NCBI GenBank assembly: GCA_023262365.1
Contig: JALRBF010000114.1
Location: forward strand, 1-16,029
Source of the DNA: Burkholderiaceae bacterium
GTDB lineage: Bacteria > Pseudomonadota > Gammaproteobacteria > Burkholderiales > Burkholderiaceae_C
Length of the DNA stretch: 16,029 nt
Reading direction: 5' to 3'
The position numbers were made by a program, and so were the translations under genes. The notes under the pieces are model-generated. The model saw nothing but the letters and a program-made list of their open reading frames with translations, did no database searches and had not been told where the DNA came from. How positions within the stretch are numbered: position 1 is the stretch's first letter; each line of letters opens with the position of its first letter. Shown in pieces: positions 5,296 through 14,370 of the stretch.

Positions 5296-5841
5296 ATGGA
5301 CACCGCCGCCTACCTTAAGCAACACATACGCACGGTGCCCGATTGGCCGTTGGCCGGCGTGCAGTTTCGTGACATCACCCCGTTGCTGCAAAACCCGCTG
5401 GTCTTTCGCGTGCTCATTGACGCCTTTGTGCACCGTTACATGGCGCCGTCACACCGCCCGGACGTGGTGGCCGGACTGGACGCGCGCGGCTTCATCATTG
5501 GCTCGGTGCTGGCGTACGAGCTGGGGGTGGGTTTTGTGCCCATACGCAAAAAGGGCAAGCTGCCGTTTACCACCGTCGAGGAGACCTACGAGCTTGAGTA
5601 CGGCAGCGCCGCGGTCGAGCTTCACACCGACGCGGTGCAGCCGGGCCAACGCGTGCTGCTGATTGACGACTTAATCGCCACAGGGGGCACCATGATGGCG
5701 GGCAAACGCGTGCTCGAAAAGCTCGGCGCCACGGTGGTCGAGGGCGCGGCCATTGTTGACCTGCCCGATTTGGGCGGCTCGCACAAACTGCGCGCCCATG
5801 GCCTGGCGCTGCACACCTTGGTGCACTACGACGGCCACTGA
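5296..5841 (+). CDS. apt: Adenine phosphoribosyltransferase
   Basis: A 181-aa cytoplasmic enzyme that makes AMP from adenine and PRPP (purine salvage). Signatures are [10 protein letters not shown] (22-31), GLDARGFI (60-67), the hood region RKKGKLP (84-90) and the PRPP loop [14 protein letters not shown] (120-133) with its Asp-Asp pair. Length and layout are complete. The ATG lies 3 nt after the stop of the antiporter gene, with no ribosome binding site of its own except GGA within the end of that gene. Translation is probably coupled and the two genes are probably co-transcribed. No clear terminator is seen in the 101-bp spacer that follows. Confidence 0.96.
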
Positions 5842-5914
5842 ACTCGTCCGCACCAAACCCGACCAAAGTACATACCAATAGCCTCTTTTGACACAATAAA
5901 AATTTAAAATGTAG

Positions 5915-5936
5915 CCCCTATGGTTGAATATAGGGG
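5915..5936 (+). promoter_or_regulatory. Hairpin overlapping the ribosome binding site of the tetrahaem cytochrome gene
   Basis: CCCCTAT (5915-5921) and ATAGGGG (5930-5936) are perfect inverted repeats around an 8-nt loop. The right arm is part of the purine-rich ribosome binding site AGGGGAG, 5-11 nt before the ATG at 5943. The repeat could be an operator or an RNA hairpin that limits translation. The upstream DNA (5862-5910) is strikingly AT-rich for this genome and contains TTGACA at 5888-5893. No good -10 lies at 16-18 bp, so the promoter is not assigned. Confidence 0.4.
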
Positions 5937-5942
5937 AGACAC

Positions 5943-7541
5943 ATGAAATGCATCACTTGGCGCCCAAACGGGGCGTCACGCCAGACTAAGGCATGGCGTA
6001 TGGGATTGGGCTTGGCCCTTTTGCCGTGGCTGTCCATGGCCCAAACAGCCACCATGCCGCCAGCTGCCACCAGCTGCGTGGCCTGCCATGGCCCAAGCGG
6101 CCAAGGGGTGGCTGGCCTTGGCCCACGGCTGGCCGGGTTATCTGCGGCCTACCTCAGCAACCAAATCGAGCGCTTTCGCCGTGGCCAACGCCAAAGTCCC
6201 ACCATGACGCCCATGGCCACCGCCTTGCCTGATGCCCAGGCCATTGCACAGGTGTCGGCCTACTTTGCCAGTTTGCCCGCCCCCGCCAACTCCACCCGTT
6301 TACTGGCGCGCGGCGACGTGGTTGCCCCCGCCACTCAAGTGGGCAAGTTGGTGCTGCAAGGCGATTGGGCGCGCAACCTGCCTGCGTGCTTTACCTGCCA
6401 CGGCTCATCGGGCGTCGGCGTGGGTGACACCCCCCGCCTCATGGGCCAGCAAGCCGACTACCTGGCCAAGCAGCTGCGCGACTTCAAACACGGCCTGCGC
6501 ACCGGCGACCCGGCGGGCGCCATGACGCGCGTGGCTCAAGCCCTCACCGAAGACGAAATCCAACCGCTGGCAAACTACTTTGCCAACCACGCCACGCTGC
6601 CCAGCGAGCAAGCCACCCCCGCCAGCCGCCCGGCCACCATGGCGCTGGCCGACATTCCCGACACCGCCTTTGGGCGTAAGGTCAAGCTCGGCTACCAATT
6701 GTTTGTCAACACCCAGCAGCTGCGCGGCTCGTACGTGCGCAACTCGCTCAACTGCGTCAACTGCCACCTCGACGCTGGGCGTCGCCCGACCGCCTCTCCG
6801 ATTGGGGTGGCGTTTTGGGCATATCCGGCCTATCGCAAGAAAAACAACAAAGTCAACAGCTACCAAGAACGCATTCAAGGCTGTTTTCGCTACAGCATGA
6901 ACGGCACCCCGCCCCCGGACGGCAGCCCCGAGCTGGTGGCTTTGTCGGCCTACTCGTATTGGCTCGGCATGCGCGAGCTGATGGACCGCGCCGGTCAAAC
7001 TGGGCCGGTGCCCGAACTCAGCGACTTGCAATTGCTCAGCGGTGGCAAAACCCAAGCCATCCACACCCCCGGCAACTTAACGGTGGAGCAACGCGCCAAC
7101 CAACCCACGAGGCTGTTCCCCAAACTGGCCAAGCCTGCACTCACGCCCTCGCCGCTGCGCGGCGCCAAGGTTTACGCCGCCAACTGCGCCGCGTGTCATG
7201 GCGCCAACGGCCAGGGCGCCAGCGCCGCTGGCTTGGCCACCCTGCCACCGCTGTGGGGCGCCCAGTCGTACAACTGGGGCGCGGGCATGCACCAAATCAA
7301 CAAGGCGGCCAACTTTATTTACGCCAACATGCCGCTGGCCGCCGAGCATACGATCACCGAGCAAGACGCCTGGGATGTGGCCGCTTACATCAACTCGCAC
7401 GACCGGCCGCAAGACCCGCACTTCGAAGGCAACGTCACCCGCACCGCGCAGCGCTTTCACCAACACGCCGGCTACTACGGTGACGCACCCAACGGCGTGG
7501 TGCTGGGCAGCCAATCGCCGCCGGCCAACCCGACGCCGTAG
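5943..7541 (+). CDS. tsdBA: Tetrahaem cytochrome c: TsdB-TsdA fusion, probable thiosulfate dehydrogenase/tetrathionate reductase
   Basis: A 532-aa secreted protein. The signal peptide covers about 1-33 (MGLGLALLPWLSMA, predicted cut before Gln34), so it acts in the periplasm. Four haem sites are visible: CVACH (45-49), CFTCH (149-153), CVNCH (271-275) and CAACH (415-419). Residues 35 to about 220 look like a dihaem cytochrome c4/TsdB, with candidate methionine ligands at 88 or 91 and at 194. From about 240 on, the pattern is that of TsdA: NCVNCHLDAGRRPTASPIG, YPAYRKK (294-300), ERIQGCFRYSMNG (309-321) and PPLWGAQSYNWGAGM (435-449). Cys314 matches the unusual cysteine axial ligand of the TsdA active-site haem. 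TsdA couples two thiosulfates to tetrathionate, or the reverse, and TsdB passes the electrons on. A TsdBA fusion is known from Marichromatium purpuratum. The gene stands alone between apt and convergent mnmE. Fold and haem count are sure; the reaction direction is inference. Confidence 0.85.
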   Translation: MKCITWRPNGASRQTKAWRMGLGLALLPWLSMAQTATMPPAATSCVACHGPSGQGVAGLGPRLAGLSAAYLSNQIERFRRGQRQSPTMTPMATALPDAQAIAQVSAYFASLPAPANSTRLLARGDVVAPATQVGKLVLQGDWARNLPACFTCHGSSGVGVGDTPRLMGQQADYLAKQLRDFKHGLRTGDPAGAMTRVAQALTEDEIQPLANYFANHATLPSEQATPASRPATMALADIPDTAFGRKVKLGYQLFVNTQQLRGSYVRNSLNCVNCHLDAGRRPTASPIGVAFWAYPAYRKKNNKVNSYQERIQGCFRYSMNGTPPPDGSPELVALSAYSYWLGMRELMDRAGQTGPVPELSDLQLLSGGKTQAIHTPGNLTVEQRANQPTRLFPKLAKPALTPSPLRGAKVYAANCAACHGANGQGASAAGLATLPPLWGAQSYNWGAGMHQINKAANFIYANMPLAAEHTITEQDAWDVAAYINSHDRPQDPHFEGNVTRTAQRFHQHAGYYGDAPNGVVLGSQSPPANPTP

Positions 7542-7571
7542 CCAGCCGGCGCCGCAGCGCGATGAACCCAC

Positions 7572-7591
7572 CACGCGCCAGCCCGCGCGTG
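7572..7591 (+). terminator. Weak hairpin between the cytochrome gene and mnmE
   Basis: CACGCGC (7572-7578) pairs with GCGCGTG (7585-7591) around a 6-nt loop, 31 bp after the cytochrome stop. Only a poor T-rich stretch (GGGGCTTATTT) follows, so termination of the plus-strand transcript is possible but weakly supported. The structure lies between two convergent genes, just past the mnmE stop at 7600-7602. Confidence 0.3.
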
Positions 7592-7599
7592 CGTGGGGC

Positions 7600-9003
7600 T
7601 TATTTGCCTATGCAAAAGTCGGCAAAGATGTGACCCAGCAACTGCTCGGTGTCCACCGCCCCGGTCACCTGTCCCAGTGCCGCGTGGGCCAGCCGCAACT
7701 CTTCGGCCACCACGTCCAGTGCGTTGGCGCCGTCCTCTAGCAAAGCCTGAGCAGTCTGCAGGTGCTCGTCGGTTTGTTTCAGCGCGTGCAGGTGTCGCGC
7801 CCTGGCGCTAAAGGGTGCCTCGGCGCCGCTTTGCGCCCCGGCCAGTTGCAACAAGGTACGGCGTATCGCATCCAAGCCCGCCCCCGTGGTGGCCGAGACC
7901 ACCAGCGCCGCGTCGTTGGCCGGCGGGTGCTCGGCCGGGGCCACCAAATCGGCCTTGTTCCACACCGTCACGCACGGCAGCGAGGGCGGCAGCCCCTGCT
8001 GCACCAGGGCGTCGGCTTGCTGCGCCTGCGGCTGATGGCGCAGGCTGAGGTCACGCACCCACAACACCGCGTCGGCTCGGCCCACCTCACGCCAGGCGCG
8101 ACTGACGCCCTCGCGCTCCACCACGTCGGTGGCGTCACGCAGCCCGGCGGTGTCCAACACGTGCACAGGCACGCCTTGAATATGCAGGGTTTGCTGCAAC
8201 ACATCGCGGGTGGTGCCCGCCAGGTCGGTCACGATGGCCACCTCGGCTTGCGCCAGCGCATTGAGCAACGAACTCTTGCCGGTGTTGGGTTGACCCGCCA
8301 ACACCACCCGCAGGCCGTTGTGTAAGGCCACACCCTGGCGCGCTTGTTGACCGATGGTCTGTAGCTGCTGGCGCGCTTGTGCCAGCTGACCTTGAGCGTC
8401 GGCACGCTGCAAAAACTCGATTTCCTCTTCAGGAAAGTCCAACGTGGCCTCCACCAGCACGCGCAAGCGCAGCACGTCGTCGGCCAGCTGATGCACGCGC
8501 GCAGAGAACGCGCCGTCCAAACTGCGCACTGCGCTGCGCGCGGCCTGGGCGGTGCTGGCGTTGATTAAGTCGGCCACGGCCTCGGCCTGGGCCAAGTCAA
8601 TCTTGTCGTTCAAAAACGCGCGCTGGGTGAATTCGCCCGGCTCAGCCAAGCGGCCCGCCAAGGGCAATTGGCCTTGATCGGCCAAGATTTGTAACCACTG
8701 CAAACAGCGCGCCTGCAACAGTTGCAGCACCAGAGGGCCACCGTGGCCTTGCAGCTCGACCACGTCTTGCCCGGTGTACGAGGCCGGCGCCTCAAAGTAC
8801 AACAGCAACCCATGGTCAATGGGCTGTCCGTCCTCGTCGGTAAAGCGCGTAAAGTGGGCATGCCGCGGCCGCGCCGGCTGCCCCAGCAAGGCCGCGGCCA
8901 AAGGGGCCAGCCCCTTGCCCGAGACCCGCACCACCCCCACGCCCCCGCGCCCTGGGGCGGTGGCAATGGCCACAATGGGTTGGTTGGGGTCGGTGAGCAT
9001 CAT
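7600..9003 (-). CDS. mnmE: tRNA modification GTPase MnmE
   Basis: A 467-aa protein that, with MnmG, modifies uridine 34 of certain tRNAs at C5, using GTP hydrolysis and a folate cofactor. The N-terminal folate-binding domain covers about 1-120 (IVAIATAPGRGGVGVVRVSG), a helical domain follows, and a G domain is inserted at about 230-390. G1 is GQPNTGKSS (237-245), with G2 TTRD (264-267), G3 DTAG (284-287) and G4 NKAD (349-352). The protein ends in FCIGK with the conserved Cys464. Two consecutive ATG codons (9003 and 9000) make the exact start uncertain by one residue. It follows yidC by 30 bp in the usual rpmH-rnpA-yidD-yidC-mnmE order. MnmG is not in the window. Confidence 0.97.
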   Translation of the reverse strand: MMLTDPNQPIVAIATAPGRGGVGVVRVSGKGLAPLAAALLGQPARPRHAHFTRFTDEDGQPIDHGLLLYFEAPASYTGQDVVELQGHGGPLVLQLLQARCLQWLQILADQGQLPLAGRLAEPGEFTQRAFLNDKIDLAQAEAVADLINASTAQAARSAVRSLDGAFSARVHQLADDVLRLRVLVEATLDFPEEEIEFLQRADAQGQLAQARQQLQTIGQQARQGVALHNGLRVVLAGQPNTGKSSLLNALAQAEVAIVTDLAGTTRDVLQQTLHIQGVPVHVLDTAGLRDATDVVEREGVSRAWREVGRADAVLWVRDLSLRHQPQAQQADALVQQGLPPSLPCVTVWNKADLVAPAEHPPANDAALVVSATTGAGLDAIRRTLLQLAGAQSGAEAPFSARARHLHALKQTDEHLQTAQALLEDGANALDVVAEELRLAHAALGQVTGAVDTEQLLGHIFADFCIGK

Positions 9004-11656: not shown

Positions 11657-11686
11657 TTGTGGATAACTTAAATCCGTGGCTACAAT
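11657..11686 (+). promoter_or_regulatory. Candidate dnaA promoter
   Basis: TTGTGG (11657-11662) and TACAAT (11681-11686) are spaced 18 bp apart on the plus strand. The -10 is good and the -35 matches at three positions. A start site near 11693 would give a leader of about 50 nt before the dnaA ATG. The -35 overlaps a perfect DnaA box, which fits repression of dnaA by its own product. Confidence 0.5.
11658..11666 (-). promoter_or_regulatory. DnaA box, perfect match
   Basis: TGTGGATAA is the reverse complement of the consensus TTATCCACA. It lies between rpmH and dnaA, where the origin or the dnaA control region is expected, and covers the -35 candidate of dnaA. Confidence 0.75.
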
Positions 11687-11706
11687 ACGAGCTCCAAAGC
11701 ACCCGT

Positions 11707-11715
11707 CTATCCACA
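11707..11715 (+). promoter_or_regulatory. DnaA box, one mismatch
   Basis: CTATCCACA differs from TTATCCACA only in the first base. It lies 40 bp after the perfect box in the opposite orientation, within the presumed dnaA leader. Confidence 0.6.
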
Positions 11716-11742
11716 GCACCCCGTCGGCTACTTAAGCACTTC

Positions 11743-13152
11743 ATGACCGAATCTTCTTCCCCCTCCCACTTGGCGGCGGTGCTGCCCGACCTGTGGCAAA
11801 GCTGCCTCGAGCAGCTGGCCCGCACCATTCCCGAGCATCAGTTCAGCACCTGGATCAGCCCCTTGGTGCCGGGCCCGAGCACAGGCACCGCGGGGTTGGT
11901 GCTGCTGGTCGAAAACCGGTTTAAATTGGACTGGATCCGTAGCCAATACCTACCGCGTATCCGTCAGGTGGTGGCCCATTTACACGGCAGTGGCCTCTCC
12001 GTAGAGTTGGCGCTTACTCCTCGCGAAACCCAGACGAGGATTGCATCACAAGCCATCGTCTCATCGCACGATCCGATTGTTGCCGAGGCCGCCAACTTGT
12101 TGGTAGCAGACGCCGGCGAGGCCCCGGGGCATCGCTCGCGCATCAACCCCTCACTGACCTTTGACACGCTGATCGAAGGCAGCGCCAACCGCATGGCGCG
12201 CGCCGCCGCCATGCACGTGGCCGCCCAAGTGGGACAGCTATATAACCCCTTGTTTATTTATGGTGGAGTGGGGCTGGGCAAAACCCACCTGATGCACGCC
12301 ATTGGCAACCAGCTACTGGCCGAGCGCGCCGAAGCCAAGGTTCTCTACATTCACGCCGAGCAATTCGTCTCGGATGTGGTTAAAGCGTACCAACGCAAAG
12401 CTTTTGACGAGTTTAAAACCCGTTACCACTCGCTGGATTTGCTCTTAATCGACGACGTGCAGTTTTTTGCCAACAAGGAGCGGACGCAAGAAGAATTTTT
12501 TAATGCCTTTGAGGCGTTGCTGGCCAAACGCTCGCACATTGTGCTCACCAGCGACACCTACCCCAAGGGCTTGACCGACATCCACGAGCGGCTGGTCTCG
12601 CGCTTTGACTCAGGGCTCACGGTGGCCATTGAGCCGCCCGAGCTGGAGATGCGCGTGGCGATTTTGATCAACAAAGGCAGCGCCGAGGACGCGGTGATTC
12701 CCGAGGACGTGGCCTTTTTTGTGGCCAAAAACGTGCGCTCCAATGTGCGCGAGCTCGAAGGGGCGCTGCGCAAAATTTTGGCCTACTCGCGGTTTAACCA
12801 AAAAGACATCAGCGTGGGGCTGGCACGCGAGGCCCTGCGCGACTTGCTGTCCATCCAAAACCGGCAAATTTCGGTTGAAAACATTCAAAAAACCGTGGCC
12901 GATTTTTACAAAATCAAGGTCGCGGACATGTACTCCAAGCGGCGCCCAGCTTCCATTGCCCGGCCACGCCAAATTGCCATGTACCTAGCCAAGGAGCTGA
13001 CCCAAAAAAGCCTGCCTGAAATCGGCGAATTGTTTGGCGGGCGCGACCACACCACCGTGCTGCACGCCGTGCGCAAAATAGGCGCCGAGCGTCAGCAGCA
13101 CACCGAACTCAACCAGCAACTGCATGTGCTCGAACAAACCCTCAAAGGCTAG
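11743..13152 (+). CDS. dnaA: Chromosomal replication initiator DnaA
   Basis: A 469-aa AAA+ ATPase that binds DnaA boxes, melts the origin and loads the helicase. Domain I covers about 8-90 ([21 protein letters not shown]). A short variable linker follows to about 135. Domain III holds Walker A GGVGLGKT (174-181) and Walker [10 protein letters not shown] with Asp237-Asp238, and the arginine-finger region is near HERLVSRF. Domain IV carries the DNA-binding signature [14 protein letters not shown] (from 433). The ATG at 11743 (MTESSSPS) is the family-like start; an in-frame GTG at 11659 would lie inside the DnaA box and is rejected. The ribosome binding site is weak. dnaN follows after 108 bp. 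Confidence 0.98.
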
Positions 13153-13202
13153 GCCCAGAAGCGGCAATCGGCGGGGTTTTTCGGCGACAATACACCGTCT
13201 GT

Positions 13203-13218
13203 CGGTGCCAGCGCACCG
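13203..13218 (+). other. Small hairpin in the dnaA-dnaN spacer
   Basis: CGGTGC (13203-13208) pairs with GCACCG (13213-13218) around CAGC. No T-run follows, so it is not a standard terminator. It could form in the dnaN leader. No clear promoter or DnaA box was found in this spacer (13153-13260). Confidence 0.3.
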
Positions 13219-13260
13219 GCGGGCCAACCCCTTACCCAAGATTCATCACTGAGAGTTGGC

Positions 13261-14370
13261 ATGATTGTTTTCCAAGCCGCGCAAGAACACGTTTTGGCCG
13301 CCCTGCAGCGGGTCGCTGGCATCGTTGAGCGCCGCCACACGTTGCCGATTTTGGCTAACGTGCTGTTGGTCAAATCCGGCGCCTCAATCGAGCTCACCAG
13401 CAGCGACCTGGAGGTGCAAATTCGCACCCAGGCCGAACTGGACGGCGAGGCCGAGAGCTACACCACCACGCTGTCGGCGCGCAAATTACAAGACATCTTG
13501 CGCACCATGGCGCCCGACCAGCAAGTCACGCTGGAAGACAAGGGCGGCAAAATCACCCTCAAAGGTGGCAAAAGTCGCTTCACGCTGCAAAGCCTGCCCG
13601 CCACCGACTTTCCCCTGGTGCAAGAACAAACCGACTGGGGCGACGCATTTGCGGTGCCGCAAAAATTGCTCAAGCACTTGCTGGCCCAGGTGTCCTTTGC
13701 CATGGCGGTGCACGACATCCGTTACTACCTCAATGGCATCTTGTTCGAGGTTGATGCGCGCCAATTGACCTTGGTGGCCACCGACGGGCACCGGCTCGCG
13801 CTCACGCGCGCCGAACTCAGCCAAGCCGTGGCGCAGCGCCAAGAGGTGATCTTTCCGCGGAAAACGGTGCTTGAATTGCAACGCCTGCTGGCCGACACCG
13901 ACGAGCCCGTGCAGTTGCAGCTGGCCAGCAACCAGGCGCGCCTGCGCTTTGGCAACATTGAGTTTGTCACCAAATTGGTTGAGGGCAAGTTTCCCGACTA
14001 CAACCGCGTCGTGCCGCAGAGCCATCCGCACCAGCTGGCGCTGGGCCGGCAAACGCTGCTCACCGCTTTGCAGCGCGCGGCCATCATGACCTCGGACAAG
14101 TTCAAGGGCGTGCGTCTGAACTTTGACAACAGCGGCTTGCACGTGGGCGCGCACAACGCCGAGCAAGAAGAAGCTGCCGACGAGCTCGACATTGACTACG
14201 ACGGTCCAGCGATTGACATTGGTTTTAACGTCACCTACCTGATGGACGTGCTCAGCCACGCCAGCACGGACATGGTGAACATGGCCCTGGCCGATGGCAA
14301 CAGCTCGGCCTTGTTTACGCTGCCCGATGACCCGTCCTTTAAGTACGTCGTCATGCCCATGCGCATCTGA
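13261..14370 (+). CDS. dnaN: DNA polymerase III beta sliding clamp
   Basis: A 369-aa subunit that forms the dimeric ring holding the polymerase on DNA. Three repeated clamp domains are present: about 1-122 (HTLPILANVLL), 130-250 (DIRYYLNGILFEV, ATDGHRLAL) and 255-369. The C-terminus VVMPMRI is typical and forms part of the pocket that binds clamp-binding motifs. Length is as expected (about 366-370). The ATG follows a GAGAG stretch about 6 nt away. It lies in the dnaA-dnaN-gyrB order with 48 bp to gyrB. Confidence 0.98.
   Translation: MIVFQAAQEHVLAALQRVAGIVERRHTLPILANVLLVKSGASIELTSSDLEVQIRTQAELDGEAESYTTTLSARKLQDILRTMAPDQQVTLEDKGGKITLKGGKSRFTLQSLPATDFPLVQEQTDWGDAFAVPQKLLKHLLAQVSFAMAVHDIRYYLNGILFEVDARQLTLVATDGHRLALTRAELSQAVAQRQEVIFPRKTVLELQRLLADTDEPVQLQLASNQARLRFGNIEFVTKLVEGKFPDYNRVVPQSHPHQLALGRQTLLTALQRAAIMTSDKFKGVRLNFDNSGLHVGAHNAEQEEAADELDIDYDGPAIDIGFNVTYLMDVLSHASTDMVNMALADGNSSALFTLPDDPSFKYVVMPMRI

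Follow-up and report, generated by a model that had tools for sequence, protein, structure and literature searches.

Descent and probable function of a tetrahaem TsdB-TsdA fusion with a long-insert TsdA half in a Burkholderiaceae bacterium

The 16,029-nucleotide stretch of DNA analysed here (the window; contig JALRBF010000114.1 of a Burkholderiaceae bacterium) contains a gene, tsdBA (5943..7541, + strand), whose product joins TsdB and TsdA in one chain with four haem motifs. The locus raises the question of how such a fusion arose and what the protein does. The answer that we consider quite probable is that tsdBA encodes a periplasmic thiosulfate dehydrogenase with a built-in dihaem acceptor, and that it would have been fused independently from a tsdB-tsdA operon of the kind in which TsdA carries a long insert.

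The reading frame starts with ATG, ends at a single stop and encodes 532 amino acids; all its features lie on the + strand. Four CXXCH motifs were read, at residues 45-49 (6075..6089), 149-153 (6387..6401), 271-275 (6753..6767) and 415-419 (7185..7199). The last two were also located by alignment, and the fourth corresponds to haem 2 of TsdA. The N-terminal half, TsdB (approximately residues 36-217; 6048..6593), is matched by the cytochrome c4 chains 6q2u and 1etp, which have no enzyme fused, unlike the window protein. The C-terminal half, TsdA (approximately residues 238-532; 6654..7538), is matched by Allochromatium vinosum TsdA (4v2k, 4wq7). Marichromatium purpuratum TsdBA (5lo9) matches the protein in three stretches that cover both halves (E 5.4e-98). 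The arrangement, TsdB first and TsdA second in a single chain, is the TsdBA architecture already known from the accessible parts of PMC5146829 and PMC8981238.

Each half bears the marks of its family: the first has the dihaem fold of cytochrome c4 and is related to TsdB genes adjacent to tsdA, and the second has two haem c motifs and the TsdA fold. Only two cysteines, Cys3 and Cys314, lie outside the CXXCH motifs. Cys314 (6882..6884; context ERIQGCFRYSMNG) aligns at the sequence level with the distal-ligand cysteine of 5lo9 and of the A. vinosum enzyme (4v2k/4wqc), and may serve as distal ligand to the haem of the active site. Asn462-Met463 (7326..7331), in the motif FIYANMPL, were placed by alignment; given the ligand roles described in the accessible text of PMC5146829, Met463 is likely the haem 2 ligand. 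Two other identities were tried and rejected: SoxA (NCBIfam TIGR04484, 45.7 bits against a cut-off of 110) and the periplasmic dihaem shuttle PdsA (NCBIfam NF049874, 50.4 bits, best on residues 30-215, against a cut-off of 330). The first-pass annotation of this DNA had described a secreted four-haem protein made of a cytochrome c4-like dihaem half and a TsdA-like half, with Cys314 as candidate ligand. That observation is confirmed in every particular legible from sequence, and its interpretation as a TsdB-TsdA fusion enzyme is supported.

The N-terminus, read by eye, runs from a basic stretch through a hydrophobic run to SMA-Q. Residues 1-33 (5943..6041) are thus a probable signal peptide with cleavage after SMA; the predicted local distance difference test score (pLDDT) is below 50 across most of residues 1-22. 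The halves are connected by a linker of approximately residues 218-237 (6594..6653; pLDDT below 50 at 222-231), in which no second signal peptide was seen by eye when it was compared with the N-termini of stand-alone TsdA proteins.

One could suspect that the joint is an assembly or sequencing artefact, as the genome is a draft of 376 contigs and another listed record of this sequence (P0122) loses the frame at about residue 210. This seems very improbable. A second 532-residue protein, 99% identical and with the same fusion (P0002; 38 member sequences), is found on a 13,150-base contig, which makes an error of the window contig alone unlikely. Moreover, the joint shows no remnant of a TsdA leader by eye, and composition is alike on either side of it.

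If the fusion is real, is it of a known kind? A first homologue search was read for its best 121 of 3,216 hits, namely the window protein, P0002 and 119 others. Four haem motifs were present in 67 of the 119, three in one (P0067) and two in 51. Hence, fused TsdB-TsdA proteins are not rare: three or four motifs are present in 68 of these 119 listed homologues. The distance between the two CXXCH motifs of TsdA is 107-109 in all of these 68, 148-153 in all 51 two-haem homologues, and 144 in the window protein and P0002. Stand-alone TsdA of the type found in Shewanella, Vibrio, Pseudomonas and Microbulbifer has a spacing of 145-154; the named two-haem matches listed are mainly from Shewanella, plus Microbulbifer and Photobacterium. 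The longer spacing is due to a 36-residue insert (residues 349-384; 6987..7094), which is otherwise found, among the sequences listed, only in stand-alone TsdA of that type. Its pattern is PVPELSD..LL.GGK in several proteins, and the insert of the window protein has a mean identity of 41% to that found in 60 long-insert proteins. In the rest of the window TsdA half, mean identity is 57.6% to the same 60, compared with 50.3% for 32 stand-alone and 50.2% for 35 fused proteins of the short class. No second fusion of the window type was found among the matches listed. The nearest match after P0002 scored 422 bits, close to the 414 of a stand-alone TsdA, so that a second long-insert fusion at a like distance would be expected to rank higher; this is a ranking argument, from a search that depends on shared words and is not exhaustive.

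The 60 long-insert loci were read from the best 80 of 569 loci found in a scan of genome contigs, with L091 excluded because one haem motif only was read in it. (In L091:1137-2198, from Microbulbifer hainanensis, the first third of tsdA is apparently in another frame, and its first haem motif was not read.) TsdB was in the same frame as TsdA in none of the 60. A separate dihaem gene lies immediately upstream of tsdA in 57 of them; the first ATG of tsdA is 2-12 bases past the tsdB stop in 50 of these 57 and overlaps tsdB in the other 7. The upstream open reading frame (ORF) differs in three loci, with one haem motif in L079 and four in L082 and L084. By eye, the stand-alone TsdA proteins compared, of both the long and the short class, carry a leader, followed in several by an ELP-like stretch that is missing from the fusions compared. 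In our preferred reading, such an operon would have become a fusion when the tsdB stop and the signal peptide of TsdA were lost.

Trees of the two halves agree with this kinship. Rows for the TsdA tree were chosen from the long-insert proteins (24 of 60), the short fused proteins (18 of 35, a set made up of L111 and 34 of the 67 short hits with four haem motifs) and the short stand-alone proteins (26 of 32); the insert columns were excluded by the filling rule. The window lies among the long-insert stand-alone proteins (26 rows, support 100/99), with Oceanisphaera placed outside the remaining 25 rows (98/96). In a first TsdB tree, the window half grouped with TsdB of long-insert operons (25 rows, 100/94; 22 rows, 97/90), and L008 (G058) was paired with it on a branch of 2.09. 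The grouping was recovered in a repeat tree from which L008 had been dropped together with the remaining 11 c4 rows and three rows of homologues (24 rows, 100/99; 21 rows, 96/87), and in a joint tree of both halves (24 rows, 100/100; 23 rows, 100/95). A constraint that placed the window plus TsdB_long in one clade gave p 1e-7, a test that is uninformative because four rows that came from the homologue search are interspersed with those of TsdB_long.

These trees bear on the idea that the protein is a Marichromatium-type TsdBA, inherited or transferred as such. The order and architecture are the same, and 5lo9 is the best solved match. The spacing of 144 and the insert, however, set the window protein apart from fusions with spacings of 107-109. 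Forcing all 20 fusions into one clade made the TsdA tree 214 log units worse (approximately unbiased [AU] test, p 2.9e-36), and one clade of the window and 12 fused TsdB halves was rejected as well (AU p 9.5e-20). The one-clade test and the spacing both speak against descent from the Marichromatium type; 5lo9 itself is outside the trees, in which short-spacing fusions like it are separate from the window. Under the models used such descent is rejected, and we regard it as hardly credible; the window fusion would have been made independently of fusions of that type.

A second alternative is that the fusion already existed before TsdA diverged into long- and short-insert forms, and that the window lineage retained it while its relatives split it into two genes. 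Several observations speak for this possibility and weigh against an independent joining of two genes. In the joint tree, Oceanisphaera (L089) is the one long-insert row placed outside the window, which adjoins all the others; the inside position of the window hangs on this single, long-branched row. With TsdA alone, a tree that puts the window beyond every stand-alone long-insert row is not rejected (p 0.23); with both halves it is weakly rejected (p 0.028). The branch of the window is itself long (0.67-0.72), at more than one change per column from the nearest rows. Furthermore, fused and separate forms are interleaved among the short-insert rows, which implies that the state changes often.

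On the other side, Oceanisphaera, with long-insert TsdA and separate genes, is placed outside the window in the joint tree at 100/95 (AU p 0.028). The four rows next outside, from Thiohalophilus, Amphritea, a Sulfuricaulis metagenome-assembled genome (MAG) and an Ectothiorhodospiraceae MAG (L088, L093, L095, L101), are stand-alone, with weak grouping (32/81). Splitting would in addition require a new leader and a new start for TsdA, and the stand-alone TsdA proteins compared, of both classes, have a leader by eye, several with the ELP-like stretch absent from the fusions. Because the next outside rows are stand-alone and stand-alone TsdA has a leader, we tend to favor fusion of two genes over retention, which seems improbable.

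Short-insert TsdA, too, probably went through several fusions or splits. Firm branches force at least four changes of label between fused and separate in the TsdA tree, and two in the joint tree.

What would the protein do? By homology, the thiosulfate site would be the haem of CXXCH 271-275, distally ligated by Cys314, and two thiosulfates would be converted to tetrathionate there. Electrons may then pass to the haem of 415-419, on the side of Met463, from it to the two TsdB haems, and from these to a small cytochrome c or a terminal oxidase. Oxidation is favored because, in the accessible text of PMC11293645, tsdBA mutants of Vibrio parahaemolyticus do not consume thiosulfate and the Shewanella oneidensis pair is termed primarily a thiosulfate dehydrogenase; the available part of another paper describes the S. 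oneidensis role as inferred in silico (PMC8524038). The loci read do not include V. parahaemolyticus, but other Vibrio among them, such as V. diabolicus (L070), have the long form.

The opposite role in the cell, that of a tetrathionate reductase on the electron acceptor side, is unlikely in our view. TsdA enzymes are bifunctional, and that of Campylobacter jejuni, which also has an asparagine (Asn254) before the haem 2 methionine, is biased toward reduction according to the accessible sections of PMC5146829. In that same text, changing Lys252 of the C. jejuni enzyme altered its direction, and the window protein has Tyr460 at this position. Tyrosine is also found there in 22 of the 29 listed two-haem homologues in which the motif was read (22 were not), while lysine is found in 36 of the 53 listed short fused homologues in which it was read (15 were not). 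The tested relative, V. parahaemolyticus, oxidises thiosulfate in vivo (PMC11293645, in the part available), and the genome of the window harbors soxC, soxY, soxZ, a cytochrome b (PF00033) and an oxidase subunit I fragment, which fit aerobic use of thiosulfate.

Among known systems, M. purpuratum TsdBA shares with the window protein an asparagine at the position of Asn462 and lacks a counterpart of the insert, with 12 residues between the matched stretches where the window protein has 47. TsdA of the Shewanella, Vibrio, Pseudomonas and Microbulbifer type has the long insert and, in many members, a tyrosine two residues before Asn-Met; both window halves cluster with this type, whose TsdA is 51-62% identical outside the insert. 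It differs in being encoded by two genes, with a leader of its own (by eye) on TsdA. Its named members include S. oneidensis SO4048, a TsdB (PMC8524038, as far as the text is available), and V. parahaemolyticus tsdBA (PMC11293645, likewise), strains that are not among the loci. A. vinosum TsdA has the catalytic half fold and the cysteine ligand motif of the window protein, without a TsdB half, and Lys208-Met209 at haem 2 in place of Asn462-Met463. C. jejuni TsdA resembles the window protein in having Asn-Met at haem 2 (Asn254-Met255), and differs from it in Lys252 and in that it does not reduce TsdB in vitro (both enzymes according to the accessible text of PMC5146829).

No description of an independent long-insert TsdB-TsdA fusion was found in the literature searched, which did not include the main TsdBA paper, and a search combining thiosulfate dehydrogenase, TsdA and Comamonadaceae returned no paper. 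If our preferred reading is correct, the locus is a natural experiment in which two TsdA lineages, with and without the 36-residue insert, reached the same four-haem chain. Comparison of the window protein with the Marichromatium type, or with a separate Shewanella-type pair, would reveal what is gained by fusion: rate, direction bias or independence of a soluble partner.

The finding also puts TsdBA into a genus of the Comamonadaceae with soxB in 9 of 10 genomes, the exception being the genome of the window (G000), where a search of the assembly for SoxB found none. One might think that Sox had been lost and replaced by TsdBA. This idea was dropped, as soxC (601 bits, cut-off 420), soxY and soxZ are present on contig C376 of the same genome (L160, 3935-7260). 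The contig terminates with the soxZ frame still open, so that soxA, soxX and soxB are most likely located beyond the break; the ORF at the position of soxD was matched by no family. The only match to a SoxA/TsdA domain in the genome is the window's own gene. The sox genes could use thiosulfate without TsdBA, which counts against our preferred reading. ccoN was not found in this genome or in that of the closest relative, G003.

The gene lies between apt (5296..5841, + strand) and mnmE (7600..9003, - strand). Beyond apt, to the left, are lptC, kdsC, kdsD and a gene for a Kef-like antiporter; mnmE is followed to the right by yidC, dnaA and dnaN, the last two at 11659-14370. The proximity to replication origin genes reported in the first-pass annotation is thereby borne out, as is the lack of other sulfur genes nearby: a scan of nine further window ORFs found none. 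Its view of the host as a likely relative of Comamonadaceae agrees with YidC, which is near that of Hydrogenophaga and other Comamonadaceae (66% identity to the closest match with a species name; two further matches reach 96% and 87%).

The gap between apt and mnmE is 18-108 bases in all eight genus relatives with a readable apt locus (58 bases in G003, with apt 94% and mnmE 83% identical; apt was not found in G001), compared with 1,758 bases, holding tsdBA, in the window. Among the relatives examined, tsdBA lies between these genes in the window lineage only, and TsdA was found in no other genome of the genus. The small gap in relatives implies that tsdBA was either gained in the window lineage or lost in the others. 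GC content at third codon positions is 0.77 and 0.81 in the two halves and 0.72-0.83 in the neighbours. Composition thus shows no sign of recent import, and a recent arrival from a donor of other composition is unsupported, a point that does not help the proposed origin.

Upstream of the gene, an inverted repeat, CCCCTAT-N8-ATAGGGG (5915..5936, + strand), has a right arm that extends into the purine-rich stretch ahead of the start codon. It might act as an operator, or form a hairpin that masks the ribosome site; an equally good repeat occurred in 116 of 5000 shuffles of the gap. A scan of 5700-7700 for sigma-70 promoters found none.

How common is TsdA around the window lineage? In samples of whole genomes, matches at 1e-30 were detected in 29 of 399 genomes of the order, 25 of 399 of the family and 27 of 369 of the class, the window's own genome being counted in each. 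These samples gave 84 loci, some of which repeat one gene. TsdA ORFs were read in 65, all with a spacing of 108-112; for the other 19 the spacing was 107-108 in 8, 114 in 5 and not obtained in 6. A locus was scored as fused when four haem motifs lay within one stop-to-stop frame. Five short-insert TsdA ORFs with that property, three of them from the window's family (L172, L176, L183) plus L111 and L203, are probably TsdB-TsdA fusions. The TsdA proteins with a spacing of 114 (L204, L206, L208, L209, L211) have an ERIRGCF-like motif, and perhaps form a further subgroup.

A different kind of fusion was seen in two of the long-insert loci, Vibrio inusitatus (L082:384-4930) and Vibrio sp. 10N.286.49.B1 (L084). 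Both carry an operon with, in this order, a gene for oxidase subunit I (PF00115), a ccoO-like gene (tested against families in L082 only), a gene for a 484-residue protein, and long-insert tsdA. The 484-residue protein has four CXXCH motifs and is CcoP over residues 32-284 (TIGR00782, 219 and 222 bits, cut-off 180); its last part, in L082, is 45% identical to the window TsdB half. It looks like a TsdB fused to an oxidase rather than to TsdA, and the row of genes is possibly a dedicated chain from thiosulfate to oxygen in which TsdB is joined to a cbb3 oxidase. Literature searches for CcoP with TsdB, or for CcoP with tetrathionate, fusion and thiosulfate, found no paper. A speculation to which we give even chances is that TsdB is a docking module that has been fused to either end of the path: to TsdA at least twice (the Marichromatium and long-insert types) and to CcoP in two Vibrio. 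If so, the recurrent fusions would mark the handover through TsdB as the slow or leaky step, and the natural route would be from TsdA through TsdB to a cytochrome oxidase.
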